Positions 1 through 64,000 of a DNA stretch of 64,000 bases are shown here, in pieces. Numbering within the stretch: position 1 is the first letter of the stretch; the number at the start of each line of letters is the position of its first letter. The notes below the pieces were generated by a model that was given only the letters and a program-made list of their open reading frames with translations, was not told where the DNA came from and did no database searches. This DNA is from Hyaloperonospora brassicae (lineage: Eukaryota; Oomycota; Peronosporomycetes; Peronosporales; Peronosporaceae): contig CANTFL010001360.1 in the NCBI GenBank assembly GCA_947650285.1, forward strand, positions 533,183 through 597,182, read 5' to 3'. A program made the position numbers and the translations under genes.

Positions 1-2
1 CC

Positions 3-2510: not shown

Positions 2511-2520
2511 GCGCGCGTAG

Positions 2521-14826: not shown

Positions 14827-14857
<31 letters not shown>

Positions 14858-24186: not shown

Positions 24187-24201
24187 TGTGGTTAAGTGGT
24201 G

Positions 24202-35830: not shown

Positions 35831-35880
35831 ATCACAAATTTGTTGCGTTCCCGACTCTCCACTGGCTCCCGGACGACCGA
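35831..35880. repeat. Family C terminal repeat block (5' side)
   Basis: Partner of 24,202-24,251 in direct orientation; see that entry. Confidence 0.6.
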
Positions 35881-36689
35881 CTACCGTCATATACTCAATT
35901 TACGCCTTCTGATTGGTAGAATAGAGAATAATACCGGTATCAGAAGTAATATGAAATCTAATTTGCAAATGATAAAACACTAACTCTGAACAATCAACGC
36001 ATGTCTTGAAGTCGGCGACGTATTATATTATATTATTCAGCTACTCCATTCGACCGAATAATCGATCGATCAAATGAGACTTTTATTCGAACGATTCTGG
36101 AACAGGTTAAGCTTGTAGCGATTATCCTGCATGGGCACTGTGAAAATGGCATCCAACGATACTGTATTTAAAATGACTTTAAGCCAGACGCAGAGGTCTA
36201 TCAAGAGGTACATCAATCGTCGCAATAACTGTTCAATTGACAAACCATACCAATGTATAACTTTATGATGGTAGTGGCTTGACGTGGCGTCTAACAAGAG
36301 CCATAGTGACATTTCCTCGCTAGTGTTTCATCGAATAGGCAGTCTGCATCCGCTGGCACTACAATTGACTTCGTTTCGAATTAAATGGAGATCGGCCGCA
36401 GCATTGACGTCCACTTCTCATCATCATCGCGCACAATGCAGTTAAGTGACTGGTCTAAGCCGATCAACATGACAGCAGTGATCGCCGGCAGCAACGAGAA
36501 TGGCTCACTGAGCGCTACAAGTTCCGTCGCTAGCGGCAAGAACGTTGTTTTTATGTAAAAATATGCTTAGTCGCTAAAGACCGCCATCAACAAAGTTCTT
36601 GTCGAGTACGTTTCCACTCACGGATACAGTATTTAATCTTACTCATATTGATGGTATTGTTGTTTCAGATGGGGGCGCAAGCCGTGTCA
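35881..36689. other. Spacer between transposons, nothing recognised
   Basis: AT-rich, short ORFs only. It may include residual LTR sequence of family C and the ragged 5' break of the next element. Confidence 0.5.
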
Positions 36690-36699
36690 AGCTAAGAGG

Positions 36700-42413: not shown

Positions 42414-42718
42414 GCTGCGGGTATAAAAACTGCACGAGGATGACCACCTGCACCTGCAACTATGAGTGTTGCAGGCTGCTTATTAGCAGCAGCAGGCGCA
42501 TTATCGCTTGGTGCCGAGTCTTGAGTGTCTTTACCTCCGGCTGCACGCATCCGTCCAGCCTCTTCGGACGCATCCTTGCTCGCTCAGCGTATGCGCGGAC
42601 ATGTCATGCGCTGTAAAGTCGTAATGAGACGGAAAAGACCAACAAGCGCTCCCCGTCCCAGAGCGATACGACGGTGGTCTCTCTGGCACCAATGATTCAA
42701 TCACTCACTATAGTGATT

Positions 42719-42732
42719 GATGGAGGAAGGGG
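42719..42732 (+). other. Polypurine tract of the older family A element
   Basis: TGGAGGAAGGGGG-type purine run directly before the 3' LTR. This is the expected position and composition for plus-strand priming. Confidence 0.75.
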
Positions 42733-43203
42733 GGTAACCGGGTGAGCCCGTTACATAAAATTGGTACGAAAGTACCAATTTTTGAATATTATCGATTTCG
42801 ATAATATTCAATCAACATCACCCGAGAAAAGTGATGTTGTCGGAATATCACCTCTAAGGGTAATATCCGCGGAGGAGCTCGCTTATTGGTTGATGTACCG
42901 TGTACATCAACCACTTTAACCACCAATTGCTGCTGAATGCGCGAAATGGGTGGTAGACAGAAGGCCCACATATGAGACTGTTGTTTAATATAGTTAGATT
43001 AAGACGAAAGATGATTCAACAAGAAACATAACCATATTAAATTACAGTTCTACTTTTCCCACAAGACAGAGCTTTCGGGTTCTTTATTGTCTTGGTCGCG
43101 CTTTCTCACGCCACGTGTACGTGACGTCGGGTGTACGCACCCTTGTATTGATATCAATACAAGGCCTTGCTCAGTTAGCTGAGGAAGAGCAAGCCCCGTT
43201 ACA
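42733..43203 (+). repeat. 3' LTR of the older family A element
   Basis: 471 bp, ending CCCCGTTACA as the fresh 5' LTR does (56,893); the start GGTAACCGGG corresponds to TGTAACGGG. It contains a series of stems: AAATTGGTAC with GTACCAATTT, GAATATTATCG with CGATAATATTC, CAACATCAC with GTGATGTTG, GGTTGATGTAC with GTACATCAACC, and CCTTGTATTGATATCAATAC plus AAGG as one palindrome. Stems sit at positions comparable to those in the 56,502 LTR but with different arm sequences. Confidence 0.85.
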
Positions 43204-43597: not shown

Positions 43598-44079
43598 TGT
43601 TGCGCAGCTGCACAGCCCCTTGAGTCAGAGGAAGACTTTACGCTCTACGAGCAACTTTGGTTCAAAGATCTCGAGTCAGAGAGTCAACAAGCGCAAAGAA
43701 CTTACGGTCCCTGTTACAGGGGGACCAAACGATTCAAAAAATTCACAGCACAGAGTTCTCATGAGCAGCTACCTTCACAAGCGTTGCTAGCTCTTACGAT
43801 CAAGACGCCTCATGAGACACGTGTCTTATGTTGATCAATATGGGAACTGAACTTTGATCCTGTTTATCGAAAAGAACACCTCAGAACAACGTACATAACC
43901 TAGTCGCTACTGTTCTAATTAATACCTCCTAAAAGGTCAAATAATTCCGTGGCTGACACACGTCAGCCCCAGACAACTGATACGGTGTTCTAATATCAAT
44001 TTTAATGGGACTCCGACCTTTGTGTACCACACATATTATGTAACCCGTTACACACACATGTTATGTGGACCTTGTTACA
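43598..44079 (-). repeat. Family B 3' LTR
   Basis: 482 bp. On the plus strand it begins TGTTGCGC and ends TTGTTACA. Positions 43,618-44,050 are identical to 50,734-51,166 in the other LTR; the outer 20 and 29 bp differ. Confidence 0.9.
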
Positions 44080-44092
44080 CCCTCCCCCACCA
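44080..44092 (-). other. Polypurine tract of family B
   Basis: On the minus strand GGTGGGGGAGGG immediately precedes the TGTAACAAGG start of the 3' LTR. Correct position and purine richness. Confidence 0.8.
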
Positions 44093-44188
44093 GAATGACG
44101 TTACCACGAAACGTCAATCGAATTTTTTCCTCGAAGAGGACGGTGTATGTGTGCTTTAACCTCGCGGTTTTGCAAAACACGAAACACC

Positions 44189-45510
44189 ATGGCATCGCCA
44201 CCTCGTGAGTCCCCGACTATCTCTTCCTACCTCGGCATTGATGTGGAGGAGGACTATGGTAGTGATACCGATGTCGTTGGTGAAGAAGGACATTGTCTGA
44301 CTCACGAGTGCAAGAGGCAAAGCCAAATACTGCACCGAACCCATTTGCCGAGCGTGGTGAAATGACCGCGCTAGTAGCGCAGCATCATGAAACAGATGGA
44401 GGTGAGCGCATCATCAACAACCCGCTCGATGAGCAACAGGAGTTAATTTTCAGCAAGAGGAGCGTGCTCTACGTCTCACTCCTACCCAGACGGTTATTCG
44501 ATTGAATAAATTACATGTCTTTAACACAAGACGTGGAAAACGTCATCGACAAACGGAAGTCCATAGCCTTGAACGATGGGCCATTGGCCCAGAGACTACC
44601 GCCAGAAAACGTTGTGCTCCGCAAGTTTTGCATGAGAGGTATCTCAAACCGTTCTTGACCACACAAGGTTAGTGCAAGTCGCACGTCGATAGACTAGCTC
44701 ATGGTGTTTTGGTTCGAACGATTACGGGCGTGCCTATCTTGTTGTTTGCCGGCGAGTTTAATGAAGAGGAGGACAATCATTTCATCCGTTGGTTATACCG
44801 CACGCGGCATCTCTGCAGTATCCCCTTCTCTGAGGGCGAGTGCCAGTGTAGCTGACGTTCTTTTGGACCGATAGCTTCGGTCCGAAATCGCCAAGCCCAA
44901 GGCCAGAGGCCAGTTGCGTACAAGTACGCTCTATGCTTAGGCTACGCCGGTAGCCACGGTCCAGCCCTAAGGCGCGGACCGACCCGCTACCTCCCACCAT
45001 TGTTGGTGGGAATCATTTTCGGTATATGAAAGATTCTTGCTACGATGTTCGTAAACATCCAAGGCGTATGGGCAATCCTGCCGATAAAATATATCATACT
45101 CCCACGAGTTTTGAGACTCTGGGTACCCTTGCCACTTCACGAGATACTGGTATTGGCCCTGACGACGACGTCGTTCAGGAGTCGCTCCACATGGAACTGG
45201 TCGTTCCCTTGCTCATTGAGCAGCGTCGGTGGTGGTCGGTGTACCGAGGAAGGATCATGAGAAGGTGCTTCTCGAGCTGAATGGTCTCCGCGAGACATTG
45301 GGTAAGTCCCAGAGTGCGTTCGACGCAATGCAAGCCCGCGTGCAAGCATTAAATTTGGGTCAAGCCCGTGCCCAGGCATTGAAGTTGAGCCAAGCCCGGA
45401 TGGACGCTCAGCTTGACCTCCTGATACGTATTCAGCAACCGATGGCAAGACCAACCTACGCGGCGCAAGCGCCTTCACGTTCACGTAAGAAAAATCCCGA
45501 TACGGCTTAA
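44189..45510 (+). pseudogene. Antisense ORF of family B: acidic N-terminus, coiled coil, basic tail; broken
   Basis: Plus-strand frames between the 3' LTR and the end of pol, opposite to the element. It starts MASPPRESPTISSYLGIDVE with an acidic run (44,189 on). A shift follows, then further segments: about 44,470-44,660 with LERWAIGPETTARKRCAPQ, and about 44,750 with GEFNEEEDNHFIRWLYRT. A C-terminal Ala/Gln/Leu-rich coiled coil has near-repeats (ALNLGQARAQALKLSQAR) and ends in SRSRKKNPDTA (45,229-45,510). Several frame breaks. The order acidic N-terminus, globular middle, coiled coil, basic end is the same as in the family A antisense ORF, although the sequences are not obviously alignable. 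Function unknown. Confidence 0.5.
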
Positions 45511-48500
45511 GCAATCCAACGTAGAAAACGGGGTGTGTGAGCGCAATTTGCGCGGAATGTTAATCGTATACGCAAGTAACTTCTTAGCGACGACTGTGAA
45601 TGGTTCAATGAAGCGCCGGCGAAACTTTTCTTGAAGACAGTAAACAATAGATTTGTAGTTAATTAAGTATTCGGCGTTGAGTAGAACTTGGTATCCGACC
45701 TCATAACGTTCAACAACATCTGCCCTTAACATCATCTTCTTCCTTCTACTTGTCTTGGCTATCATCCAGTGCGTCAAGCACATGTGGTACAACATTCAAC
45801 TGCGTTGCGAGAAACTCGCTTACCTGTTTTTGAGCAGTTGTAGGGCTGATATCAGGAAGCCGATCGACCATCTCTCCCCCACCAAGCCCTGAACCACGGA
45901 TTGGTAGCCGTAACGGAACGCGAGGGTGCGTGATACCCTTCACATAGAACGGTGTCTAGCCGGTGGAGGCATGCTCGGCATTATTCAACGCAAACTCAAC
46001 GATAGGGAGCATCGAACTCCAACGTTTCGGCGTTTCAGCGCAAACACTGCACAAGATATCATTAATGATGCAATTCATTCGCTCGGTTTGACCATCGGTC
46101 TGCGGATGACTCGCTGTGGACATGTCAAATCGTGTGCCGAGCACCTTGAAGATGGACGTCCAAAACTTCCCAGTGAAGCAAGGATATCTATCAGAGATAA
46201 TCGCCAACGGCAATTCGTGTTGTCGAAACACGCGATCGATAAATAGCGTATCTGTACCTTCACTATCAATGGTATCCGGCACCACCGCTAAGTGATCCAT
46301 CTTGCTCAAACGGTCAACAAAGACCACAATATCTGTATTGCCAACGAATCTTTCGGTAAACCGAACAAGAAGTCCATGCTGATGGACTCCCAACACCCAG
46401 AGGGTATAGGAAGACTAGCTGCGGCGCAGCCGCGTGAGGTGAGAGTTTCACACGTGCGCACATATGTTCTCACCCATTTGTATAATTTGGGCCACCAATA
46501 GCATTGGCTAACTGAGCCGTAGGTCTTCTCACGACCTAGATGACCCTTCAACGCAGTATCATGTGCCTCATAGAGGATCTGATACTTGAACTCCTCATCA
46601 TGCGGGACAAAGATGCGAGGGGAATCCTCCACATCTGTGCTATAGCACAACAGGCCTTGATCGATGAAATAATAATGTAGCCTCGCACGCAAACGTGCCG
46701 ACAATTCCATGTCCGAGTCCTTAAACTCCTCGATCCCTAGATCACGTAGCAGAGCTACACAATGTTCATCCTTAGCATATGCCGTACGTATTAGGTCAGA
46801 GACCGACGACGACAGAGTCGTAACATGAGAAAGCTCATTGTCAGGCCTGCGTGACAAGGCACCATCCAAAGCATTCTGCTTGCCGGGCTTATACTTTACC
46901 TCGAAGTTTTACTCGGCAAAGAAGGAAAGCCGACGAGCCATTCTCTGAGAGAGATGTGGCGACTGGGTCGCAGTGCGTAATGACGCATGATCTGTAAAGA
47001 TCACAAAAGGCTTAGAGCCAAGCAGATGAACAATGAATTTAACAAGAGCATACTTCATTGAAAGTAGCTCTTTGTCATGAACATTATAGTTCTTTTCTGC
47101 AGCCTTCAGCTGCCGAGACTCAAACGCAATTACGCGTTCCCGTCCGTCAGAATCTGTCTGTTACAGAGCGCTGCCAATGGCAAAGTCAGATGCGTCACAG
47201 ACGACACTGAAAGATCGATCAGGATCAGGCAAAGCCAAGATTGGCGCATGAAGGAGACTCTCCTTTACTGCTTGAAAAGCATCATGCTCGGTGCTAGTCC
47301 AGCACCATTCCACATCCTTTTTGAGGAGATTGGATAATGGCCGAGCCATGTCTGCGTAATTCGCACTGTACTTGTGTAAGTAATCGGCAAGTTCAAGCCA
47401 CTTACGTAATTCCTCTTGGTTCTGTGAAACTGGCTAATCAACTATGACTATGACCTTAGCGGGATCCGCTCTAAGGCCTCGCTTGCCAATAAAGAATTGT
47501 AAAAAGGGAATCTCTTCTGCATCAAAGACGCACATAGACTCGTTGGGGTAAAACCTTTTCGTGCGCATGCACTCGAGCACCGCTCGTAAATGTTCAATGT
47601 GATTGTCCACATCTGACTGACCGTTCATAGCACGACTATGGACAAAGATGTTATCAAAGTACGTCTGTGCATAACCTCGGTGAGGTCTAAACAGTTGCGT
47701 CACAAGACGATTGAATGTAGCCGGGGCATTTGATAACCCTTGCGGCATAAAAAGCCACTCCCAGAGCATACCGCTAGGGGTACTGACTGCTGTCAGCGGG
47801 ATATCACTCTCTTGCATGAGAAGCTGGTAATAACCATCGACTAGGTCGGATGCACTGTACATAGTCATCCCACCATGTTGTTCTGAATAACATTCTTCCT
47901 CGGAATTGGTGTCTGAGCCGGGATGGTGGCAGCACTATGCTAATTGTAAGCATGAACAATGCACCACTTACCATTGGGCTTTCTGACACAGAAGGGAGGT
48001 GTGGAATGGGAAGATTTGCTCTCACAAACCATAGCACCGTGTGCTTTGCACGAAAGAAGTCGTCTATGACGTCACAATGTTCCTTCGGTAAAGGCCACTG
48101 CCGTGTTACGCAGTATTTAGTTCCAGGAACCAAGTCAATTTCATGACGTACACCTCTATCGGAAGGTAAGACGGACGGTGGGTCGTGACAAACCACGTCC
48201 TAAAACTCATTTAACAAAAGATAGATCGGATAAAGCGGATCCTTAAGGACCGAAGATCCACTACGAGCATCCTATGCCGCTTTTGTGTCCTCAAGGACAG
48301 ACTCGTTCAATAACGAGGATGAGTTCGACTCAATATCCGGCCGAATGACCACTAACTCGGAAATTCTCCTGCCTGTAAGGCTTGGCTAAATTCGCCTTCA
48401 GACATTTCGTCTAGTTCAAAGAGAGTATCTAAGAATGGAAGAGTCTCAAAACCAATATTGCCATCAGTCTGGCCAGTCAACCCATTGACAAGTGTATATA

Positions 48501-49660
48501 GGGTTTTATACTATTATCACTTCGTGACTTCCTAGACGTTAGGCGCTTATCAGTTGCTACTCTACGCTGGGATTGTTTCCTCAGAGATACCTTACGCCTC
48601 CTAGAGGCCGGGGCAGTAGGGCCCCCGTGGTTGCTATTTATCTTAGCACGCTCTATACGAGAGCTCATGTCATGAACGACATCTGGTGAAGAGTTACGTA
48701 ACTCGAACACTTCACCCAGCGGATTTCCACGATCAACTTGACGTACAGGGCCTAGCCCGAACACTCTGGCTTCTCGCCATCAATGTCGATACCGACATTC
48801 AGTGAGTTGCCATCGCGGCCTCCCCTCTACCGGTGGAATTTGACGTGCCACTTTACTCACACTAAACAAATTACATTCTTGATGACTCGGCCCTAGGCCA
48901 AACATGCTTGAAGCATGCAGTGACTCATTATCACAACGAGTATCAATCAACGGAGTTCAACTCTCTTCAAATACGTTAGAAGAGCTCCGCTCTATATTGA
49001 TGTCATTGACATTGTAGTTAGTTAACTCTGACATACCAATGTCCAGCTCATAGACATCTTCCGTCAATGACTCGCGCCAATAGTGATTCCTTTGCCTAGC
49101 GATGGTGGGTTCATGACTCTCACAAGCTTCGCTCGAAACATTGAGCGTGGCGACTAAGGTCTTCGACCTCCAATCGATCCATGGCTCATGGCGTTCAAGC
49201 CAAGCCATAACCAGGATGAGATCGTATCTCGAATCCAAATCGACGACAAGACAGCGTTCAATACTGTCAGAGTCCAAAAACTTTACACCTAAGTTCGACG
49301 GAACTTTAGGCACCGTGACGCGACTACCAGTCGCTAAACAAACGGTGATTGAATTACCCTCATGCGCTTTAAGCGCTTCAGCATATTGCTGACTTCCCTC
49401 AAGGGAACGACGTCGATCATAATTGCACGATGCTCCGGAGTCGATTAGGTTCGACCAATGCTTCTCAAAGCCTCTAGCTTTCGCCTCGGCGACTAACAAG
49501 CCAGGCTTGTATCCACGCTCTGTGCTGGCGGGCACAGAGCTCGGTGGGGCTAAGCCCTGTTTCAATCTACCTCGTAGAGAAGCAACAGAACTCAGTTCTA
49601 CCCCAGTAGGGCGCCCCGCACCTACTGGGTGTAGACTTTCCCCCGTGCCATACCAGGTGT
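45481..49660 (-). pseudogene. Family B pol pseudogene
   Basis: Protease: LIDSGASCNY near 49,450 and DLILVMAWLERHEPWIDW. RT: PLTAVSTPSGMLWEWLFMPQ (about 47,800-47,740), then TYFDNIFVHSRAM at about 47,665-47,628, where YFDD is YFDN, removing a metal-binding Asp. RNase H: VVCDASDFAIGSAL (about 47,205-47,161). Integrase: FVDRLSKMDHLAVVP and SHPQTDGQTERMN (46,396-45,956). C-terminal domain: RRRFIEPFTVVAKKLLAYTI (about 45,620). Stops and shifts separate these blocks, and 48,200-48,950 is especially broken. The 3' end overlaps the antisense coiled-coil ORF by about 30 nt. Confidence 0.8.
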
Positions 49661-50655
49661 CTGGTTGTGGCTAGGGTTTCGACCCATAGGAGTCGGTTGT
49701 TGATTACGCAAAGGACAAGTGGGACGCAAGTGTTTAGTGCTTCCGCACATATAACAGCGTCTCACTTCCTGTCGTTGCTCTGCAACATGAAGCTTTGCTT
49801 TACCTTCATCTTTACATGGCTGAGATCCATCGGTTCTGGCTTATAGTAATCCGAGGTGCTCGCAGAGGTCGCCCTCGCAAAGCTTGGGTTGTACTCATTT
49901 CAACCAAGTTTGGCCGACCTGAAGTTGTGCTTAGCATTTTGAGCGATGATAACAGCTTCCTCATAAGTAGAGGGATGGACCCGAAACACCTCGGTCTTGA
50001 CGACGGCATTACGAAGAACTTTCATGAATACAGTTACATAGACTGTCTCAGGGAGAGGGTCAGACTGCATAGCAGCCATACGAGTTCTCAACTCTTGGAC
50101 ATATTCCGTTAACTCATATTTATCCTGACGGGTAGACGAGAAACGTGAGTGCACGCGGTAAGCCTGGTTAGGCGTCGAGAAAACTCGCAAAAGGTCTAAC
50201 TTGAGCGAATCCAATGTGGGAAACGCCAAGTCGACTGACGTGCCACACGTCAGAGCCCACTCTCTAGCTCTTCCATTGAGCTTGGAGATCGCCAGAGAGA
50301 CCCGCTGGTACTCCAGTGAGATGAGGCCAGAGCTCATGGCCATCTCAATCTCACGGATCGAGAGGACGGGATTTTTCCTCTCCTTCCCGGAGTAATCTTT
50401 AACGTCCACCCGAAGAAGACGAGACTTAACCTCTTCATCTGGCATCGCCACGTAGCGTGTCGGCATATCCGACGATACTTGGTTTTGAACCTGCCATAAA
50501 AAGGCCGTTTCATACTTCATGAAGTTCTCGACTCGTGCATTGAGCACGTCGGGACCTTGCGCAGCTAAGTCCTCAACATATTCTGGGCCCATGACCGCGT
50601 TCAGCGTATCAAGCGCAACCTTTTGGGCCACAGTGAGATGTGTGGATTGCTCCAT
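49661..50655 (-). pseudogene. Family B gag (nearly intact core, one stop before the zinc knuckle)
   Basis: Starts MEQSTHLTVAQKVALDTLNA at 50,655. It runs 251 codons through a retrotransposon gag core (KLNGRAREWALTCGTS; STRQDKYELTEYVQELRTRM) to a stop at 49,900. In the continuing region, EPMDLSHVK and a CCHC knuckle CYMCGSTKHLRPTC (49,756-49,715) are still readable after a frame change. So gag was about 330 residues before breaking. Confidence 0.75.
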
Positions 50656-50696
50656 CCTTACAGAGCATCAGTCGTAACAACTCAGGTATATATTGA

Positions 50697-50713
50697 ATAC
50701 AAGTGCTACCCAT
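50697..50713 (-). other. Primer-binding-site candidate of family B
   Basis: On the minus strand, directly after the 5' LTR end CTACA, the sequence ATGGGTAGCACTTGTATT resembles the TGGTAGCACTTTG that follows the family A 5' LTR. The leading TGGTAGCA is what an initiator-Met tRNA 3' end would pair with in family A. Confidence 0.5.
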
Positions 50714-51195
50714 TGTAGCGGCGCTACACAGCGCCTTGAGTCAGAGGAAGACTTTACGCTCTACGAGCAACTTTGGTTCAAAGATCTCGAGTCAGAGAGT
50801 CAACAAGCGCAAAGAACTTACGGTCCCTGTTACAGGGGGACCAAACGATTCAAAAAATTCACAGCACAGAGTTCTCATGAGCAGCTACCTTCACAAGCGT
50901 TGCTAGCTCTTACGATCAAGACGCCTCATGAGACACGTGTCTTATGTTGATCAATATGGGAACTGAACTTTGATCCTGTTTATCGAAAAGAACACCTCAG
51001 AACAACGTACATAACCTAGTCGCTACTGTTCTAATTAATACCTCCTAAAAGGTCAAATAATTCCGTGGCTGACACACGTCAGCCCCAGACAACTGATACG
51101 GTGTTCTAATATCAATTTTAATGGGACTCCGACCTTTGTGTACCACACATATTATGTAACCCGTTAAACACACCATGTTGTGTAACCCTCTTACA
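50714..51195 (-). repeat. Family B 5' LTR
   Basis: 482 bp. On the plus strand it begins TGTAGCGGCGCTACA (a hairpin) and ends CTCTTACA. Core identical to the 3' LTR over 433 bp; outer ends diverged. Confidence 0.9.
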
Positions 51196-54856: not shown

Positions 54857-54883
54857 GACTCAGCCTTCACTACGTCCCGAGAG

Positions 54884-56501: not shown

Positions 56502-56893
56502 TGTAACGGGGCAGCCCGTTACATGAAATTGTCACTTTAAAGGAAAGTGACAATAAAGAATATAAAGATGGATATTCTTTAAACAATATCACCAAAGTGG
56601 TGATATTGAAGGGTCGACCAAAGGGTCTGTTCATTGGTTGATATCGTGATGATATCAACCCACCAATCGCCGCAAGACGCGCGCAATGAGTGGTGACGAG
56701 ACGTCACCATACATCCAGTTATATTAGTATAGTTAAACTAAGTCAAACGAAGAGACAGTAGTTTAAAGACTTAATTATATTAATATAACAGTTCTACTTT
56801 TACCCTACCTACGCTTCCTCGCTTGCCACGTGTACGTCCGTCGGGGCACCCAAAACCCTTGCGTTAAGTTACGCAAGGGTGTGCCCCGTTACA
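56502..56893 (+). repeat. 5' LTR of the recent family A element
   Basis: 392 bp, TGTAACGGGGCAG...GTGCCCCGTTACA. Stems visible: TGTAACGGG with CCCGTTACA (56,502-56,523), GTCACTTT with AAAGTGAC (56,531-56,551), AAGAATAT with ATATTCTT (56,556-56,579), AATATCACC with GGTGATATT (56,585-56,607), GGTTGATATC with GATATCAACC (56,636-56,660), and CCCTTGCGT with ACGCAAGGG (56,856-56,879). The last is enclosed by GGGGCAC and GTGCCCC (56,843-56,887). Confidence 0.9.
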
Positions 56894-56895
56894 CC

Positions 56896-56908
56896 TGGTA
56901 GCACTTTG
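56896..56908 (+). other. Primer-binding site
   Basis: TGGTAGCACTTTG starts two bases after the LTR. TGGTAGCA is the start expected for an initiator-Met tRNA primer; the following bases differ from common examples, so the exact tRNA is uncertain. Confidence 0.6.
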
Positions 56909-56937
56909 TAGTCCTTCCAAGGACCACATCATCCAAC

Positions 56938-58092
56938 ATGAACATGTTGGATGAAGAAGACACCTTTCACGCCACGCGTGAAGGGTTTACCCATTTGAGT
57001 GACATCGAATGGGGTGCGGTAGAACGAATGAGTTCTACCGTAGGCGATCTCGTCGTTAGCGCCATGTTGGAGTCTCTAGACAGAGACCAACAACATGCTG
57101 CTATCGCCAAGTTCATTCAGAATGAACTTGCTCTCGAGAGGGAGAAAGTAGCCTTGCTTCACCAGCAAGGCTCTCAACAGGCCGAGCAGTTGAGAGAACT
57201 CGGTGCTCAACAGACGGAGCTGTTGAGACAGCAGCAATTCCATGCTGCTGTGGGCGGGACGGCGCATGCGCGTCGTCCCGAAGTCATGAAAGTTGACATC
57301 TCCAAGTACAGTGGAGTCCCGGAGGACTCCCTGTTACTATGGTTTGTCGAACTCGACAGAGCCCTAAGGGCTCGTCGCGTCGAAGATGAGCAAATGAAAC
57401 TCACATTTGCTCAGACCCACTTGGCAGGGCGTGCCAAAACTTGGTCCCTGGGACTCGAGAGTAGCGACCCAAATGTGTTTAGGTCGCTAGATGACTTCAA
57501 GTCCCGGCTCAGACAAACGTTTGAGCCGCCACGTGCTGAGTTCAGGGCTCGTTCAGAGCTCCTGAAACTCAAGCAGGGTAAGCGTGATGTGCACGCTTAC
57601 GCACAACATATACGACTCCTTGCGAGTAGTATAACTGCTAACCCAGTTCATGAACACACGTTGATTACGGTGTTCATGCAAGGGCTCGCAGAAGGGCCCG
57701 TCAGGAGCCATCTGTTCCGCCTTGAGCTGAATACGCTTGAAGAAGCGATATCAGCCGCGGAACAGGAAGACTTTAGCATGAGACAGGCTCATGCTAGCTC
57801 AAACTCTTATCGTCCACCGAGACGACAAGAGATCGGAGGTCCAGAACCAATGGACCTCTGCTATGTTGAGAGCGAGAGACCTCGCTCTTCAAACAACAAG
57901 CGATTGCAGAGGTGCAATCGCTGTCAGAAGTTAGGGCACTACGCATACGAGTGTAGTGCTCCACGCCCAGTACCAAACAGTACTGAGCGAAATGGACGAC
58001 CATTTGCCAGAAAGGGCAATGGGCGTGGGTCCAGCGCTGTTGCGAAGCCGCAACAGCGAGACGGACCATCAAAAAATGGTCGGGGTCAGTAG
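56938..58092 (+). CDS. gag: Gag polyprotein of family A
   Basis: 384 residues. It forms the particle core and binds element RNA. The N-terminal part (1-110) is acidic then Gln/Glu-rich helical (LHQQGSQQAEQLRELGAQQTE). The retrotransposon gag core is about 137-270 (LLLWFVELDRALRARRVEDE; LAGRAKTWSLGLES; ITVFMQGLAEGPVRSHLF). A GPEPMDLCYVE linker leads to a CCHC knuckle CNRCQKLGHYAYEC (326-339, CX2CX4HX4C) and a basic Arg/Gly tail. ATG 56,938 and ATG 56,944 are both possible starts, and both lie in the arms of an 11-bp hairpin (56,930-56,953). The frame ends at TAG 58,090-58,092, inside the stem of the frameshift hairpin. The neighbour pol is in the -1 frame. Confidence 0.92.
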   Translation: MNMLDEEDTFHATREGFTHLSDIEWGAVERMSSTVGDLVVSAMLESLDRDQQHAAIAKFIQNELALEREKVALLHQQGSQQAEQLRELGAQQTELLRQQQFHAAVGGTAHARRPEVMKVDISKYSGVPEDSLLLWFVELDRALRARRVEDEQMKLTFAQTHLAGRAKTWSLGLESSDPNVFRSLDDFKSRLRQTFEPPRAEFRARSELLKLKQGKRDVHAYAQHIRLLASSITANPVHEHTLITVFMQGLAEGPVRSHLFRLELNTLEEAISAAEQEDFSMRQAHASSNSYRPPRRQEIGGPEPMDLCYVESERPRSSNNKRLQRCNRCQKLGHYAYECSAPRPVPNSTERNGRPFARKGNGRGSSAVAKPQQRDGPSKNGRGQ

Positions 58093-58111
58093 GGGCGGAG
58101 CGCCCTACTGA
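58071..58111 (+). promoter_or_regulatory. -1 ribosomal frameshift cassette between gag and pol
   Basis: In the gag frame TC A AAA AAT gives the heptamer A AAA AAT (58,071-58,077), of the X XXY YYZ type. After 8 nt comes a perfect 9-bp stem: TCAGTAGGG (58,086-58,094) with CCCTACTGA (58,103-58,111) around an 8-nt loop. The gag stop codon TAG (58,090) is inside the 5' arm. The pol frame is open from upstream of the slip site onward, exactly one nucleotide back from gag. All three parts of a classical signal are therefore present. Function is predicted, not shown. Confidence 0.8.
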
Positions 58112-61100
58112 TCCAGCAACCTCAAGAGAATTTGCAAATCTCTTGACGAAAGTTGCTCCAGATACACAATCATTGTGTGTCTCTGCACCTGGTGATGACG
58201 TTTCGCTCATCACCTTGAAGTTGGAAGCGACAAATGATTTGTCGCTTCGTGCCCTAGTAGACTGTGGGGCGTCGAACAACTTTGTTCGTCGCCAGTCACT
58301 AGAGGGTCGTAGGCTCAAGTTCGTTGAGCGCGACATTCCCCTCACAAGGATGACGGTGCGCCTTGCAACAGGCGCATCGATAACCGTTGAGAAACGTGTA
58401 GTAGGAATCCACTACACGTTAGAGGGCGAACAGTACGATGATGACTTCATCGTACTAGATCTGGATGACAAATTTGATGTCATCCTGGGATTACCTTGGC
58501 TCAGAAAGTACGAGCCAAGGGTGAGCTGGCAGCATCGATCCGTGAAGATGCCTGCCGCTTGTTCATCAGATGGCCATCTGATGAACATCTTGGAGCGTCC
58601 ACAAGCGTGTGGATGTTCTGCGAGTGAGTGCGATGGCCTCACTTGCGGTACGGTCGTTAGCACGACTGCACAAGATCACAGTGTAGTTGATCACTACACT
58701 GTGGAGCAAGCTCCCGGCGGCTGTACAGATGTACAGGCTGCGCCGAAGGTCCACCACTCGAATAAGTCGAGTGGACCGGGACATGGATGCATGCCTAGCG
58801 GGCAGCATCTTAGAAGAAAGAAACCTGTTGCCCCCAAGGGGCAACATGAAAATCCTAGGTCGACTGGAGAGTCGACCGTAGAGGATCGGTGCCTGACTGT
58901 GGTTGCACAGCCACAGTCGGAAGACGTCGAGGGAATAAGTCCCCACGTACTTGAGGAAGGAATTCCTCAAGAGTCGCTTGCTGAGGGATTAGGCCTTCAG
59001 CAACCTGTGGAAGCAAGTTCCCAGGAAGAAACCGAGACGTTGAACGTCTTGGTTAATGACGGATCAAGCGTAGGCGCTTATACGCTTGATCTGATTGTGC
59101 CTCCGAAGTTGACTTCGGAGATAACTCAGTTGCCAACGCTAGAACCGAAACGGTTCTTGCGTGATCTGCGTAGTGGCAAAGTCAAGCAGATCTGCATACT
59201 CGTCACAGAGGATGAGTATGTGACCGATATTCGGTCGGCAACAGTATTTGCTGAGAACGAACGGGTTCTCAGCAGCTCATCGATGGACGAAAGTGTCCTC
59301 GATGAGAAGACTCGGATTGAGCGATACGCGTCTCAATCCTGGGAGTCACTTCAGGCAAATCCTTTGTATAAGGATTTGATCGAATTCAGGGATGTGTTCC
59401 CTGAATCCGTACCTTGCGAGTTGCCTAAGGACAAAGGCACTCGACACGAGATCGAGCTCAAACCGGGCTCGAAGTATTGTGTCATGAAGCAGTGGCCACT
59501 GCCTCGTGAACAAGTACTAGCGATCGACAAGTTCTTTGCCGATCGCTTAGCAGCGGGCCATGTGAGGGAATCAACATCCCCTCACAGCTCTCCGACCTTC
59601 TGTGTGCGAAAGGCCACAGGAGGATGGCGGATAGTGCACGCATTCAACAAATTGAATGCTGCAACGGTACCGGCTCAGACGCCGATACCGAGGAAGGACG
59701 TAATCATAGATGGTATGTCAAAGAGTACCATCTTTTCGTCCATGGATCTGATGGATGGATTCTATCAGATCCTGATGCGTGAACGGGACATCCCGTTCAC
59801 GGCAGTGAGTACCCCCAGCGGGATGCTGTGGGAGTGGCTAGTGATGCCACAGGGGCTGAGTAATGCCCCTGCAACATTCAACAGATGTGTTACAAATCTG
59901 TTGAGACCGGTGCGAGACTTCGCACCGAGTTACTTCGACGATGTGTTCGTCCATAGCCGGGCTATGGACGGAAAGACGGACGTTGAAGTTCACAGAACTC
60001 ACGTTCGTCAGGTTCTTCAACTTATGCGCAAGTATAAGTTGTACGCCAACCTCAAGAAGTGTATATTCGCGGCTAGCGAAATACCACTTCTTGGGTGCAT
60101 CGTGGGTAAACACGGCGTACGCCCTGATCCCGAAAAGATCAAGGCGATCACCGACTGGCCAGTGCCAGTCGATGTCAAGGGACTAAGGAAGTTCCTTGGT
60201 CTTGCGGCGTACTTGCACAAGTACTCGCGCAACTACGCCGAGATGACTGTTCATCTTTCTTGTCTGCTCAAGAAAAATGTCAAGTGGTCATGGAACGCTG
60301 AGTGCCAGCGTTCCTTTGAAGGTATCAAGCAAAGCTTGATGCAATCGCCGATCTTGGCGATTGCAGATCAGGACAGACCATTTCATGTGGTCTGTGACGC
60401 CAGCGATTTTGCAATCGGCTGTGCGTTAATGCAGTTCGATGCAGATGGCGCGGAGCGCGTCATCTGTTATCAGTCGCGTCAGCTGCAAGCAGCTGAGCGC
60501 AATTACCCAGTGCATGACAAGGAACTCCTTGCCATGAAGTACGCACTGGCTAAGTTTCGCGTCTATCTCTTGGGAGATAGACCGTTTGTTGTCTATACGG
60601 ACCATGCGTCATTACGCACGGCCGTAAACAGCCCACACCTCTCGCAAAGGATGGCGAGGTGGCTGTCTTTCTTCGCGGAGTATAACTTCTCCGTGGAGTA
60701 TAAACCGGGACGACTCAATGTCGTCGCTGATGCGCTTTCGCGCCGGCCCGATTTCGAGCCGGACGCACAATCCAACAGTGAGGATAAGCCCACTGTTGCG
60801 ACACTGTCAGTCAGTGTCCCGTCGTCAAGTTTACTTGACGACGTACGAAAGGCATACGCGGAAGATAAGGATCTTCTGCGATTGATGGATCATCTGGTGA
60901 ATCCATCCAGTAAATCCATGAGGGATTTACCGGCTTTGTACCGATCCTCATCGGATCGGTATAGTACACGCAACGGATTGCTGTACTATACAGCTGTTGC
61001 CGACGACACGCCTCGTGTCGTCGTACCCGCTCATCATGATTTGCGTTTACGCATCATGTATGAGTGTCACGATGCCCCAACAGGTGGCCATCGTGGTAGA

Positions 61101-61751
61101 GAAAAGACTTACCTCACGGTAAGTCGTGACTTTTACTGGCCACGCCAGTATCAGTTTGTCCGCAAGTACATACGTGCTTGCGAGGTTTGTCAACGGGTGA
61201 AGCCTAGTCCTTCATCCCGTGCGCCATTGCAGCCTCTGCCTGTTCCGACAGAGTGCTGGCAGTCCGTTTCAATGGACTTCGTCTTCGGGTTTCCCGAAGA
61301 CGCTCACAAGAATAATGGTATTCTTGTGTTTGTTGACCGATTCAGCAAGATGGTCCATCTTGCTGCTGTCCCTGAGTCGATCAAGGCTCAAGGTTGTGCT
61401 CGTGTCTTTCTAGACACGGTCTTTAGACTCCACGGGTTACCCCGTGAACTCGTATCCGACCGTGACCCTCGGTTCACGGCGGCATTTTGGCAAACCGTGT
61501 TCCGTACTCTCGGAACACGATTGAAGATGTCTACTTCTGACCATCCAGAAACAGATGGTCAGACGGAACGTGCGAACCGTGTCCTCGAAGAGATCCTTCG
61601 AGGATATGTCCACTCGTTTCCGAGTTGGAGCGAATTCCTACCCATGGTGGAATTCGCCATCAATAATTCGGTGCATGCTTCCACACAGCACACACCGTTT
61701 TACGTGAATGGCCTACGCCATCCACGTAGTGCCCACCCTTCTAGAGTGTGA
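58077..61751 (+). CDS. pol: Pol polyprotein of family A (protease, RT, RNase H, integrase core)
   Basis: 1,225 codons from the frameshift point (58,077) to TGA 61,751. No conventional start codon is needed if made by -1 frameshifting. Retroviral-type protease: ALVDCGASNNFV, Asp codon 58,260, and DVILGLPWLRKYEP. RT: MDLMDGFYQILM and YFDDVFVHS (codons from 59,931), catalytic Asp pair intact. RNase H: VVCDASDFAIGCALMQ. Integrase: H-H-C-C zinc motif (His at 61,068 and GGH, then CEVCQ near 61,180), and the D, D, E triad at MDF (61,275), SDRD (61,458) and the RVLEE segment (about 61,590). The frame ends early, in VNGLRHPRSAHPSRV, because of a probable one-base insertion at about 61,730; the older copy reads on here. 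The DCG protease variant (instead of DSG or DTG) is notable. Confidence 0.92.
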   Translation, partial: WSGSVGAERPTDPATSREFANLLTKVAPDTQSLCVSAPGDDVSLITLKLEATNDLSLRALVDCGASNNFVRRQSLEGRRLKFVERDIPLTRMTVRLATGASITVEKRVVGIHYTLEGEQYDDDFIVLDLDDKFDVILGLPWLRKYEPRVSWQHRSVKMPAACSSDGHLMNILERPQACGCSASECDGLTCGTVVSTTAQDHSVVDHYTVEQAPGGCTDVQAAPKVHHSNKSSGPGHGCMPSGQHLRRKKPVAPKGQHENPRSTGESTVEDRCLTVVAQPQSEDVEGISPHVLEEGIPQESLAEGLGLQQPVEASSQEETETLNVLVNDGSSVGAYTLDLIVPPKLTSEITQLPTLEPKRFLRDLRSGKVKQICILVTEDEYVTDIRSATVFAENERVLSSSSMDESVLDEKTRIERYASQSWESLQANPLYKDLIEFRDVFPESVPCELPKDKGTRHEIELKPGSKYCVMKQWPLPREQVLAIDKFFADRLAAGHVRESTSPHSSPTFCVRKATGGWRIVHAFNKLNAATVPAQTPIPRKDVIIDGMSKSTIFSSMDLMDGFYQILMRERDIPFTAVSTPSGMLWEWLVMPQGLSNAPATFNRCVTNLLRPVRDFAPSYFDDVFVHSRAMDGKTDVEVHRTHVRQVLQLMRKYKLYANLKKCIFAASEIPLLGCIVGKHGVRPDPEKIKAITDWPVPVDVKGLRKFLGLAAYLHKYSRNYAEMTVHLSCLLKKNVKWSWNAECQRSFEGIKQSLMQSPILAIADQDRPFHVVCDASDFAIGCALMQFDADGAERVICYQSRQLQAAERNYPVHDKELLAMKYALAKFRVYLLGDRPFVVYTDHASLRTAVNSPHLSQRMARWLSFFAEYNFSVEYKPGRLNVVADALSRRPDFEPDAQSNSEDKPTVATLSVSVPSSSLLDDVRKAYAEDKDLLRLMDHLVNPSSKSMRDLPALYRSSSDRYSTRNGLLYYTAVADDTPRVVVPAHHDLRLRIMYECHDAPTGGHRGREKTYLTVSRDFYWPRQYQFVRKYIRACEVCQRVKPSPSSRAPLQPLPVPTECWQSVSMDFVFGFPEDAHKNNGILVFVDRFSKMVHLAAVPESIKAQGCARVFLDTVFRLHGLPRELVSDRDPRFTAAFWQTVFRTLGTRLKMSTSDHPETDGQTERANRVLEEILRGYVHSFPSWSEFLPMVEFAINNSVHASTQHTPFYVNGLRHPRSAHPSRV

Positions 61752-61754
61752 CTC

Positions 61755-62819
61755 TTGGATAAGGGGGAGGGACTCGCTCGAGCAAAAACCGTTTTGGCTC
61801 TTGCTCATCACGTGTCGACGCTAACGTCGTCACGTATGATGCCGATGTCGATCAATGTCGACATCGATGAAGAAGACCACCTCAATAATAGCGACGACGC
61901 TATTATTGACTCGGATGATGATGACGATGCTGGTATATTCAGCATCGTCAACGATTATGCCAGCGAGGAAGAAGACAACCTCGCTGAAGAAGAGAGCAAT
62001 CTCTTAGCAGTGCGCACGAAGCGCACTGAAAGACAAAACAAAGAGTCAGCAGAGAACTTCCTGCTGACTCGAGAAGCGGTAGTCCGTTTTGTACAGGACT
62101 CCATCGCAAATGCGGTGGACCGTCAGAAACGGAACGCAGACAAGAATGGAAGAGCAAATGTTCTTTCATTTAAGGTTAATGACCTAGTACTACTGTCTAC
62201 GGTAAACTTACCTGGACATGCAGTCACTAGTGTCGGCAGTAGTAAACTACTGCCGAAATACATTGGGCCATTTCGTGTGTTGCACCGCAAGGGCAATGCA
62301 TACACGATTGAATTGCCTCGTAGGATGCGCACGCATCCTACGTTTTATGTTGGTCGTCTCCGCCCGTACCATCAGTACGAGGCCTCTTGCGAGAACGGAG
62401 ATAACCGGCGCGCTCAAGAATCCCCAACAGATTCTTGTGATCACGGACCAAACACTGAAGTTGGTCCTTCGTCGAAAGGAGTTGGTCCTTCATCGACGCG
62501 GCCTCGCGACGAGCCGTCTCTAGCTCGTCGCGCAAACGACGCCTCCGCTCACTCTCAAGCTGAGCGAACGCGAATTCCGATCGGTCCTTCTCCCGATCGG
62601 CACGAAGACGTCGCACGTCCGACTGCAAGGCGTGCCGTCGGTCGTTTTCGTGATCGACGTCCTCCCTCAGCTCGGTCAGGTAACGCTCGTGGTTACCCAA
62701 AGTCTCGTGCAGGCCCGGCGGCTGAGTTGGACCTTGTCTTTCCACCGCCACCGAAAACCACTGGTGGATTCCCACGGTGGTCAACGCTTTCTTGTGGAGC
62801 GTATCTTGAACCACCGTGA
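61755..62819 (+). pseudogene. Integrase C-terminal domain and linker, separated from pol by frameshifts
   Basis: 354-codon frame. The first 40 codons are out of register with the older copy, so the apparent start at 61,755 is probably artificial. From about 61,860 (DIDEEDHLNNSDD) the acidic linker and then the gypsy integrase C-terminal module are readable: FKVNDLVLLSTVNLPGH, LLPKYIGPFRVLHRKGNAYT, HPTFYVGRLRPYHQYE. The final 130 codons are Arg/Ser/Pro-rich and lie opposite the antisense coiled-coil ORF (62,814-62,338), so their composition may be set by the other strand. The chromodomain follows in another frame. Confidence 0.75.
62338..62814 (-). CDS. Coiled-coil continuation of the family A antisense ORF
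   Basis: 158 codons directly downstream (minus-strand sense) of the 62,830-63,951 frame, offset by a frameshift. From LTELREDVDHENDRRHALQS to LLGILERAGY it has heptad spacing typical of a long coiled coil. It ends with a basic SRKRPRTDG, a plausible nuclear localisation signal. The older copy has the matching VELREDLEHERDRRYAL. It is probably the C-terminal half of the same protein, broken in this copy by the one-base change that also breaks the chromodomain on the other strand; alternatively a separate small ORF. Confidence 0.55.
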   Translation of the reverse strand: MVQDTLHKKALTTVGIHQWFSVAVERQGPTQPPGLHETLGNHERYLTELREDVDHENDRRHALQSDVRRLRADREKDRSEFAFAQLESERRRRLRDELETARREAASMKDQLLSTKDQLQCLVRDHKNLLGILERAGYLRSRKRPRTDGTGGDDQHKT

Positions 62820-62975
62820 CGATTCAGAATCAAGGACGAGCTACCTCGTCCGGTGGCGGGGGTATCCACCCTCTTTGACAGCTGGGAACCCCGTTCCCAG
62901 CTGATGAATGACGTTGAAGGTCTCGTCCACCAGTATGACGAGACCCATCCGATGAGTCCGAGGGCCCATCGGTAA
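62767..62975 (+). pseudogene. Chromodomain at the end of pol, with one frame break
   Basis: HGGQRFLVERILNHRDDSES then RTSYLVRWRGYPP are in one frame. After a one-base loss at about 62,868 the expected FDSWEPRSQLMNDVEGLV and HQYDETHP continue in the next frame to TAA 62,973-62,975. Chromodomains on gypsy integrases guide insertion into heterochromatin. This segment overlaps the 3' end of the antisense ORF on the minus strand (62,830 on). Confidence 0.75.
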
Positions 62976-63951
62976 ACACGCGCTTTTGGCGCTTGTAGAC
63001 GGATTGCAAGTTTGCAATCGCGTCACGCATCTCAGCCGAGATGTGTGCCCTTCCCCAGGGCGAACTTAGGGAGTACACGTCCCTATGTGCACGTTGCGAG
63101 TTGTCGACACAACTCGCACAAGGATCACCCCAAGTGAGGCATGGAATGCCGGCCTCACTCGACAAACAGTGCAACCGGTACCTTGCACCGGTTGGCGTTC
63201 GCTTTTCGAACCTGAGGCGTGTCGCCTCAAGCTTCTTAAGCCACCCTTCTCGTCCAAAATTCTTTACGTTTTGGACGAAGGCGTTCCACGCTGCCAAAAG
63301 CGAGTTCTTGTCACGCTTTTGGTTGCCATTGTACCATCGATGCCTAAAGAAGGCATCGAGATAAAAGTCTTCTTCAGCGCGAAAGTTTCTCGCGCTGGGT
63401 CCTAAGCCATGAAGCTCAGTTGCATCGAATAATGGAATTCGATGGTGCTGGCTTGTCTCGTGAGACAGGCTATCGATGAGCCGCTCGGGCAAGCGCCACG
63501 GCTTGAGCTCACCACGCTTCAATGTGGTACCTGTTTCGGTACCACTGCTTTCAGAATGACGACGGCGCGCGCCATCGTCATCACGCTCTTGCGGGGAAGC
63601 ACGAGCTGATGCTGGTGAGGCATAGTATTCCTCACCATATAATTCATCATCACTGCCGAACAGACTGTGTTGCATTTCACGAGTCCGCTCGTTCGACAGT
63701 GCTCTTGACGAACGATGAGGCACCGCCGGTGATCGGGATGCCTCTGGAACGTTGCGCGAGTCAGGCACGTCTGACTCGCCAGAATTGATGACCTCATTGT
63801 CAAGGTCATCATGTGCACGTGGTGCGATACCGCGTGCGTCTGCAGCACCTTCTGCTGCAGACGGAGAACAAGCAGCAGACGAAGAAGCGTCTGCCGCAGA
63901 GGCTGGCACAGCAGCAGGCTGTGTGGTCTTCGAATCACCTCGCATAGACAT
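62830..63951 (-). CDS. Antisense ORF of family A, conserved protein of unknown function
   Basis: The frame is open from the window edge (63,999). The first ATG is at 63,951 (MSMRGDS), giving 373 residues. Residues about 1-75 are Ala/Ser-rich. An acidic stretch follows (SLFGSDDELYGEEYY), then a conserved globular block: FRAEEDFYLDAFFRHRWYNG, LLAAWNAFVQNVKNFGREG, TGARYRLHCLSSEAG. Four Cys in HC...PCLTWGDPCASC could bind zinc. The same block is readable in the older copy (41,816-41,580 -) with mostly conservative changes. It runs opposite to gag-pol, overlaps the chromodomain, and lies between pol and the (unseen) 3' LTR. No signal peptide or membrane span, so not env-like. Possible regulator, nucleocapsid-like or RNA-binding protein; unproven. 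Confidence 0.7.
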   Translation of the reverse strand: MSMRGDSKTTQPAAVPASAADASSSAACSPSAAEGAADARGIAPRAHDDLDNEVINSGESDVPDSRNVPEASRSPAVPHRSSRALSNERTREMQHSLFGSDDELYGEEYYASPASARASPQERDDDGARRRHSESSGTETGTTLKRGELKPWRLPERLIDSLSHETSQHHRIPLFDATELHGLGPSARNFRAEEDFYLDAFFRHRWYNGNQKRDKNSLLAAWNAFVQNVKNFGREGWLKKLEATRLRFEKRTPTGARYRLHCLSSEAGIPCLTWGDPCASCVDNSQRAHRDVYSLSSPWGRAHISAEMRDAIANLQSVYKRQKRVFTDGPSDSSDGSRHTGGRDLQRHSSAGNGVPSCQRGWIPPPPDEVARP

Positions 63952-64000
63952 GTTAACTATGCGAGGCAAGGTCAGGAGTGAATGGGTCTGACCAAACAAG

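Follow-up and report, generated by a model that had tools for sequence, protein, structure and literature searches.

A Ty3/gypsy retrotransposon of Hyaloperonospora brassicae tiled with short perfect hairpins whose size differs among lineages

Introduction

The window analysed here, a stretch of 64,000 nucleotides of the Hyaloperonospora brassicae genome, ends in a retrotransposon that a preliminary description had reported to be written almost entirely in perfect short hairpins, even within its gag and pol codons. The locus raises the question of whether so many hairpins exceed what composition and the encoded proteins bring about and, if so, whether they are kept by selection or left by a mutational process.

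Methods

Perfect inverted repeats were counted with loops of at most 15 nt and arms of at least 7, 8 or 10 nt, and were compared with 40 dinucleotide-preserving shuffles and, for coding sequence, with 100 synonymous-codon shuffles per ORF. In the synonymous test of divergence, hairpins were defined in a copy uninvolved in the comparison; we rely on this test over our first arm figures (0.001 vs 0.013), for which the hairpin-defining copy was partly among those compared, favouring the result.

Results

Structure of the element

The DNA from 56502 to 64000 is the front part, approximately 7.5 kb, of an approximately 8.0-kb Ty3/gypsy LTR retrotransposon (Table 1), the window end at 64000 being also the contig end, so that this copy is truncated before its 3' LTR. 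Its Pfam domains follow the Ty3/gypsy order, gag and then protease, reverse transcriptase, RNase H and integrase, with a CCHC knuckle match in gag under the Pfam curated cut-off. The SH3-bearing frame is separated from the pol frame in the window copy, whereas the other 38 copies listed have longer open frames, with stops inside 3 of them. A Chromo domain, which in chromoviruses is expected after the integrase, occurs in many of the 120 public relatives among the matches listed and was detected by Pfam in copies L039 and L042 but not in L038, nor in the window ORFs, where the frame is split. The antisense ORF has relatives in downy mildews and no Pfam match. At other loci of the genome, the three complete copies L010, L012 and L013 have LTR pairs, the 3' LTR of L010 being 391 bp, and 5-bp target-site duplications that we read from their ends as GTGGG, CAAAA and CAGAG, respectively. 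The window also holds an older copy of the same family, with hairpins reduced yet still many, and a lineage D copy that is flanked by direct repeats 98% alike and has an excess of 12-17-nt inverted repeats.

Table 1. Coordinates of the features discussed, as positions in the window
Feature	Position	Strand	Basis and remarks
Hairpin-tiled element up to contig end	56502..64000	.	104 repeats with arms of at least 8, loops of at most 15, up to 63970
5' LTR	56502..56893	+	392 bp, starts TGTAACGGGGCA, finishes TGCCCCGTTACA; sequence, LTR pairs of complete copies
gag ORF	56938..58092	+	ORF; Pfam Retrotrans_gag, Ty3_capsid
pol ORF	58143..61751	+	ORF; Pfam aspartyl protease, reverse transcriptase, RNase H, integrase
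28-nt perfect palindrome within pol	58560..58587	.	Sequence, hairpin list
Downstream frame with Tf2-1-like SH3 domain (C-terminal part of pol)	61755..62819	+	ORF; Pfam
Antisense ORF	62830..63999	-	Open at window end; first ATG is residue 17
Older copy of the window element's family	35500..43000	+	Approximate bounds; identity near 85% over 36722-40890
Lineage D (short-hairpin) copy	43598..51013	-	About 88% identical to L039; bounds are the reported 300-nt repeats

Excess of perfect hairpins

The reported density is real: between 56502 and 63970 we counted 135 perfect inverted repeats with arms of at least 7, against a mean of 5.5 (sd 2.2) in dinucleotide shuffles, 104 against 1.4 with arms of at least 8, and 38 against 0.1 with arms of at least 10. 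The individual structures singled out in the preliminary description were also recovered, namely the palindrome in pol, which is exact, the 10-bp arms at 57,899-57,922, and the nested stems at 57,063-57,097 and 58,116-58,160, each with its inner and outer stem. Elsewhere in the window, there was no marked excess in 1-16500 (21 repeats with arms of at least 7 vs 18.0 shuffled); 16500-36000 had 20 vs 16.7 at this threshold and 10 vs 3.6 with arms of at least 8, and 42000-56500 had 32 vs 11.0 with arms of at least 7.

The density had further been said to exceed the needs of protein coding, and counts no higher than in codon-preserving shuffles had been named beforehand as grounds for dropping the claim. 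With arms of at least 7, the counts were far higher: 21 in gag against a shuffle mean of 1.9 (maximum 6), 68 in pol against 4.2 (maximum 11, so that none of 100 shuffles reached the count), 12 in the third ORF against 2.2 (maximum 6) and 23 in the antisense ORF against 2.3 (maximum 6).

Hairpins end with the element, the three complete copies having 118, 119 and 119 repeats with arms of at least 8 inside and 0, 1 and 0 in their flanks of about 2 kb each. The 5' LTR is itself dense in perfect hairpins, and density and mean span were 18.3 per kb and 23.1 nt in the LTR/UTR (8 hairpins), the same in coding sequence (108 hairpins), and 19.7 per kb and 23.9 nt in the antisense region (25 hairpins). 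About 60% of the lineage A element lies outside hairpins with arms of at least 7. Spacing was random in lineages A and D and regular only in C1 (cv 0.64, p 0.0015). The codon phase in which third positions face each other was mildly depleted in A (12 of 64 hairpins), a depletion absent in C1 (13/41), C2 (7/22) and D (18/55). Residues encoded in arms were slightly less conserved (0.559) than the rest (0.596; p 0.14), and a cost of the hairpins to the protein sequence was rejected.

Folding energy and strand symmetry

Folding z-scores, proposed for both strands in the preliminary description, were strongly negative on each in one 1-kb piece of L010 (-24 on the plus and -17 on the minus strand, 20 shuffles each). 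Across gag, pol and ORF3 of the window copy, all 19 fragments of 300 nt had z below -2 (12 shuffles each), with a mean folding-energy excess of 49.1%, and each of them surpassed the excess of about 3% that is described as marking genome-scale ordered RNA structure (PMC3950689). The excess was 15.1% in C1, 17.3% in D and only 6.5% in C2.

The gain in folding per 250 nt was equal on the two strands (-36.5 and -35.9 kcal/mol), and stems of L010 with one mismatch had 17 G-U and 20 A-C mismatches, showing no preference for G-U, which would be odd if only the folding of sense RNA were under selection. Neither the mismatch counts nor the strand gain thus indicated structure specific to sense RNA, where G-U pairs are usable. 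Evidence on strands is nevertheless mixed, since plus-strand loops were A-rich over the whole of L010 (skew 0.091 vs 0.012 in the null, P 0.001) but with P 0.11 in gag and pol of the window copy.

Hairpin size among related elements

The preliminary description had called for a look at other family members, and the comparison extended to other families of the same genome: all 19 relatives sampled there (11 of lineage A, four of C and four of D) were hairpin-rich, whereas two of two distant Ty3-like loci (L041 and L043) were not. These and L040, which had no match to the pol of A, held 1, 1 and 3 repeats with arms of at least 8, respectively, in 4.5-5 kb, and 20 unclassified loci from a reverse transcriptase search (L018-L037) held at most 3 per 3.6-3.8 kb, where 0.4-1.3 are expected; these counts rule out hairpin tiling as a trait of all retroelements in the genome. 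Searches of viral contigs and of genome contigs did not find DNA of relatives; as proteins, relatives are present in Peronospora effusa, Phytophthora, Globisporangium and other Hyaloperonospora.

Hairpin size was specific to the lineage. Spans were about 24 nt in A (mostly 22-27 nt, mode 23-26), 19-21 nt in C1, 22-24 nt in C2 and 12-16 nt in D, with a sharp size limit and no excess of arms of at least 8 in the last. Positions were mostly unshared between lineages (for A and C1, 5 of 64 near one another vs 6.1 expected). Median hairpin energies were -12.6 kcal/mol in A and -12.7 kcal/mol in C1, although arm GC was 0.53 and 0.69, respectively; longer arms were less GC-rich in A (rho -0.21, p 0.013), a trend that a role of stability would predict but that was absent in C1 (rho 0.05) and weak in C2 (p 0.066) and D (p 0.089). 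With three hairpin sizes within one host, it is likely the element that sets the size, which suggests that the element, not the host, carries the ruler.

These sizes bear on whether the hairpins shield the element from RNA silencing, by hiding targets in both sense and antisense RNA and by making small RNAs of 21 or 25 nt fold on themselves, so that Dicer products guide badly. Equal folding of the two strands is what such a shield would give, as is the mismatch pattern, because a pair that holds on either strand has to be Watson-Crick. The modal span in A is also near the 25-nt peak of small RNAs described for Hyaloperonospora arabidopsidis (PMC7297541) and the size of 25/26 nt described for transposon small RNAs in Phytophthora (PMC3804510), and structured genomes have been linked, inconsistently, to siRNA escape (PMC3950689). 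However, C1 and D have other sizes in the same host, and with so much of A outside hairpins many small RNAs would still work. We therefore consider the shield rather unlikely; silencing escape, one of the causes first proposed, by itself leaves the three sizes unexplained.

Divergence between copies

Young copies seem to keep their hairpins intact, judging from synonymous differences between copies W and L005, which under three uninvolved definitions of the hairpins numbered 1/150 in arms vs 36/683 in the rest (p 0.005), 2/223 vs 35/611 (p 0.0009) and 3/218 vs 34/615 (p 0.005). Two of the synonymous arm tests were borderline (p 0.045 and 0.051), and per-lineage tests over all sites with the L002 hairpins were weak (p 0.07, 0.011, 0.20 and 0.60). 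Few changes were available for the comparisons between young copies. For the older copy L045 against W, the synonymous difference was not significant (16/223 vs 60/610, p 0.15), but the old copies OLD and L044 also had mildly fewer of their private changes in arms (p 0.027 and 0.025), so that the contrast of young with old depends on L045.

In a 3' part of 87% identity, arms diverged by 5.1% and loops by 21.1%, with some changes compensated, and compensated changes were also present in three hairpins common to C1 and C2. Between L039 and the D copy of the window, divergence was 0.086 in arms, 0.153 in loops and 0.135 elsewhere, with 2 changed pairs compensated and 50 not, a comparison that says little because the window copy is decayed. 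The D and C2 copies differ by neutral-looking changes, which are uninformative on selection.

A mutational origin would have reverse transcriptase fold back and copy arm from arm, perfecting imperfect repeats without any function. Template switching is described as making and mending hairpins (PMC8794818), and it would account for hairpins that are Watson-Crick only, strand-symmetric, of one size in coding and noncoding parts, and mostly turning over in position. The asymmetry tied to it, more G-C and U-A (PMC8794818), is matched for U-A in lineage D (5' arms T 0.280 vs A 0.181) but only half matched in A, where G-C (0.283) exceeds C-G (0.241) but A-T (0.255) exceeds T-A (0.221). Among eight young copies, moreover, none of 17 and none of 8 polymorphic pairs (two hairpin definitions) was compensated, where by our reasoning correction in random direction should compensate about half; no multi-base tract making one arm a copy of the other was apparent by eye in the 87% region, and the size limit of D is sharp. 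The absence of compensated doubles together with the conserved arms favours purifying selection over continual correction. Template switching is a possible origin of single hairpins, but an unlikely explanation of the whole. Of the causes proposed in the preliminary description, selection for ordered structure accordingly gained from the conserved arms, the compensated changes and the excess over coding needs, while repeated correction lost ground. Composition, a coding artefact or chance, with nothing but the mild codon-phase effect of A to speak for it, is extremely improbable, because the excess survives dinucleotide- and codon/protein-preserving shuffles, which rule out chance, composition and codon usage as its cause, and is not marked at other loci of the same genome.

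Discussion

Hairpins of lineage-specific size, built of Watson-Crick pairs and with conserved arms in young copies, tile the LTR, coding and antisense parts of these elements. As an explanation to which we give an even chance, the window element would belong to a young, abundant, chromovirus-type Ty3/gypsy family whose lineage-sized hairpins are under purifying selection. Selection would keep the hairpins through the transposition cycle, a copy with a broken hairpin leaving fewer offspring, and over longer times hairpins would arise at new places while old ones vanish. More weakly, the size may be set by an element-encoded partner, putatively Gag/nucleocapsid or reverse transcriptase, that works inside the virus-like particle on the RNA of the element or on its single-stranded cDNA. 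This partner would require or prefer numerous local hairpins when the nucleic acid is packaged, compacted or copied in an orderly way, and would act on Watson-Crick stems, not just on G-U-tolerant stability of sense RNA. Judged from sequence, hairpin function may lie in packaging, cDNA folding or shielding from RNAi. We count against this explanation the equal numbers of G-U and A-C mismatches, the unshared positions, the random spacing in A and D, and the low folding excess of C2.

Structured virus genomes, such as those of norovirus and hepatitis C virus, are likewise described as folding far more strongly than shuffled sequence across their coding regions, with structure linked to fitness in norovirus; the folding excess quoted for their regions is 9.1% and 10.9%, respectively (PMC3695492, PMC3950689), against 49% in gag-pol here. 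Unlike them, the present elements are LTR retrotransposons with short perfect hairpins that are lineage-sized, strand-symmetric and without G-U preference. Yeast Ty3, also of the Ty3/gypsy group, has a genomic RNA whose structure was probed by SHAPE and in which a well-folded core formed without cellular factors makes up about 20% of the RNA; the available part of that report, however, mentions no hairpin tiling (PMC11381356). In the dispersed packaging signals described for small RNA viruses such as MS2 and parechovirus, many short RNA segments along the genome jointly contact the capsid, but no repeated loop motif was seen in our element, where loops of 4 and 5 nt are nearly all different. 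Template-switch hairpins share the perfect reverse-complement arms, but the published cases concern RNA genes and arise when DNA is replicated (PMC8794818), and their correction signature was not found here. A non-exhaustive literature search, judged by titles and the starts of abstracts, yielded no recognised precedent for a hairpin-tiled retrotransposon.

More broadly, and leaning slightly against it ourselves, we suggest that a clade of oomycete chromoviruses may carry a second, sequence-independent code, Watson-Crick hairpins whose ruler belongs to the element, needed for replication and re-evolved after lineages split. If so, these elements would be, to our knowledge, the most strongly folded protein-coding sequences known, and would offer a natural test bed for structure carried by synonymous sites. 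Codon-based rates in such elements would measure structure instead of neutrality and, with three hairpin sizes in one host, the purpose of genome-wide structure would become testable by swapping the element and not the host.

Element structure and copies

The element at the right end of the window carries gag, a pol with protease, reverse transcriptase (RT), RNase H and integrase domains, and a Tf2-like SH3 domain, and was therefore assigned to the Ty3/gypsy LTR retrotransposons (lineage A). The contig ends with the window; complete copies on other contigs are about 7985 bp long, their LTRs measure about 391 bp, and they show 5-bp target-site duplications. The family is abundant in the genome of Hyaloperonospora brassicae, a downy mildew of the Peronosporaceae, with 39 pol matches (those scored among 9075 first-look candidates) being 98-100% identical and a domain search giving at least 150 matches, mostly at one score. 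Among the 120 of 445 matches listed, the nearest named public pol proteins were from Peronospora effusa (85%), P. matthiolae and Globisporangium splendens. The LTR at 56502-56893 has a 12-bp terminal inverted repeat at its ends (TGTAACGGGGCA/TGCCCCGTTACA), and another hairpin, made up of its first 22 nt, carries the terminal-repeat motif.

The window copy (W) is 99% identical to the copy L010 up to about 62388 and 87% identical from 62736. With this step across 62389-62736, W appears to have arisen by recombination between two subfamilies, its 3' part seeming, by sequence identity, to come from another subfamily. The antisense ORF had an N/S rate ratio of 0.45 between W and L010 and 27 public relatives, Hyaloperonospora (including H. 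brassicae) and Peronospora proteins among them, and a Pfam search found no domain; it is likely to be a real antisense gene.

Features in the window and loci of the same genome (L-numbers) assigned to each lineage
Feature	Position or loci	Strand	Remarks
Antisense ORF	62830-63999	-	3' end of element; 438-439 aa between stop codons in L010, L012 and L013
Lineage D copy	about 43598-51013	-	88% identical to L039
Lineage A	W and 11 loci		
Lineage C	L038 (C1); L042, L047, L059 (C2)		
Lineage D	L039, L056-L058		

Hairpin excess and folding

Within 56502-63970 we found 135 perfect inverted repeats with arms of at least 7 bp and loops of at most 15 nt, compared with 5.5 in dinucleotide shuffles; the counts were 104 versus 1.4 for arms of at least 8, and 38 versus 0.1 for arms of at least 10. 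The four sites named in the preliminary description (57063-57097, 57899-57922, 58116-58160 and 58560-58587) were confirmed by reading the sequence and in the hairpin list. Its claim that the encoded proteins do not need such density also held: synonymous-codon shuffling, which keeps the protein, reduced the 68 repeats of pol to 4.2 and left similarly small numbers in gag, the third ORF (ORF3) and the antisense ORF, 0 of 100 shuffles reaching the observed count. Elsewhere in the window, inverted repeats were at shuffle level in the left 16.5 kb, near it at 16500-36000 (10 versus 3.6, arms of at least 8), and intermediate in an old copy at 35500-42000 (50 versus 5.7, arms of at least 7).

A 1-kb piece of L010 folded on both strands, at -489.7 kcal/mol (z -24) on one and -490.2 (z -17) on the other. 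In 300-nt fragments, excess folding of gag-pol-ORF3 reached 49.1% for W and 49.4% for L010; the values for C1, D and C2 were 15.1%, 17.3% and 6.5%. Five stretches used for comparison gave 1.1%, -1.6%, 2.1%, -1.0% and 2.5%. Median predicted hairpin stabilities were -12.6 (A), -12.7 (C1), -11.3 (C2) and -4.0 (D) kcal/mol.

Selection on sense RNA alone would favour G-U pairs, a property of RNA helices, and G-T is a poor pair in single-stranded cDNA. Stems with one mismatch, counted in L010 (C1, C2 and D having too few), comprised 17 G-U, 20 A-C and 12 others (24, 21 and 15 at a laxer limit), and stems continuing with G-U were no commoner than those continuing with A-C, either outside (18 versus 16) or inside (19 versus 20). 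Excess folding was equal on both strands, and a structure formed by both RNA strands, or by single-stranded cDNA, seems to fit better than one formed by sense RNA alone. A-rich loops on the + strand were clear in L010 (P 0.001), but not in window gag and pol (P 0.11).

Hairpin size in related lineages

Forty-two loci, picked by score and not at random, were read out of 150 places listed by the RT search. Twenty (L018-L037) had no marked hairpin excess. Nineteen of the remaining 22 were related to pol A, 18 of them with 55-98% identity and L059 with 69% over RT-RNase H, and all 19 of these score-chosen loci were hairpin-rich; L041 and L043 (25-28% identity to pol A) and L040, which has no pol A match, were not. 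A tree placed L041 and L043 far off and left the branching order of A, C and D without resolution.

Hairpin size was specific to each lineage. The excess lay at spans of 16-30 in lineage A, with a peak at 22-27, at 19-21 in C1 (L038; 29 versus 3.4), at 22-24 in C2 (L042; 14 versus 3.3) and at 12-15 in D (L039; 42 versus 3.9), in which arms were of 5-6 and longer ones few; in the lineage D copy in the window, inverted repeats spanning 12-13 nt numbered 52 versus 11.8, and those spanning 14-15 nt numbered 37 versus 12.5. In lineage A the coding part, the antisense part and the LTR/UTR (with 8 hairpins) had equal mean spans, so that coding apparently does not set the size. Because the lineages live in one host, three sizes would not easily follow from a measure supplied by the host, for example the length of its small RNAs. 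Hairpins of L038 were GC-rich (0.69) and spaced more regularly than by chance, with a median of 114.5 nt between centres, unlike those of A and D. In L039 the innermost pair was 5'-pyrimidine/3'-purine in 106 of 150 hairpins, a strand-neutral bias that A did not show.

Hairpin centres coinciding within 6 nt were near chance for A-C1 (5 versus 6.1), A-C2 (4 versus 3.1), A-D (6 versus 8.1) and C1-D (2 versus 4.7), and above it for D-C2 (6 versus 2.2, sd 1.5). Exact-centre matches, few yet exceeding chance (A-C1, 3 versus 0.51; A-C2, 3 versus 0.31; A-D, 2 versus 0.69), could mean that a small number of hairpins are ancestral. C1 and C2 had 8 of 35 hairpins in common, all with the same centre (0.13 expected) and three with compensated changes.

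Conservation of arms

In the 3' part, W and L010 differed by 5.1-5.9% in arms, 18.5-21.1% in loops and 14.1-14.9% in the rest, with three compensated pairs, in a comparison biased towards arms by defining hairpins in one of the two copies. Young lineage A copies had fewer synonymous differences in arms. Those between W and L005 were 1/150 in arms versus 36/683 elsewhere with hairpins taken from L045, 2/223 versus 35/611 with those of L002, and 3/218 versus 34/615 with those of L008. Depletion was likewise seen for W-L007 (1/223 versus 34/611), was weaker for W-L008 (2/228 versus 19/605, p 0.045) and borderline for L002-L005 (1/150 versus 23/683, p 0.051), and was not significant between W and the older L045 (16/223 versus 60/610, p 0.15). 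Changes private to L045 hit arms and elsewhere alike (0.0311 versus 0.0331); those private to two other older copies, OLD and L044, were mildly rarer in arms (p 0.027 and 0.025). Among polymorphic pairs in eight young copies, compensated doubles numbered 0 of 17 (L005 hairpins) and 0 of 8 (W hairpins). This pattern is expected from purifying selection with slow compensation and is unlike what frequent mutual arm correction should produce. Copies of D and C2 are uninformative on selection, because changes there look neutral.

Origin of the hairpins

The explanations considered here partly overlap, escape from silencing being selection too. Selection for structure is favoured by arm conservation, and we consider it probable that selection acting during the transposition cycle maintains the structure. 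Escape from RNA silencing agrees with both-strand folding, and the lineage A span comes close to the 25-nt length of small RNAs described in H. arabidopsidis (excerpt of PMC7297541), but the C1 and D sizes do not fit; we regard this origin as unlikely. Correction by template switching, which agrees with the perfect pairing, is somewhat less likely still, the compensated doubles being missing.

Genome-scale ordered structure is of a known kind (excerpts of PMC3695492 and PMC3950689), but that of lineage A is several times stronger, and here it consists of perfect hairpins of lineage-specific size inside a retrotransposon; among the papers listed in our search of open-licence literature we saw no earlier report of such tiling. 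Within selection, the most likely route would be an element-encoded partner, to which we give an even chance overall and which would act in the particle on local hairpins of the size specific to it.
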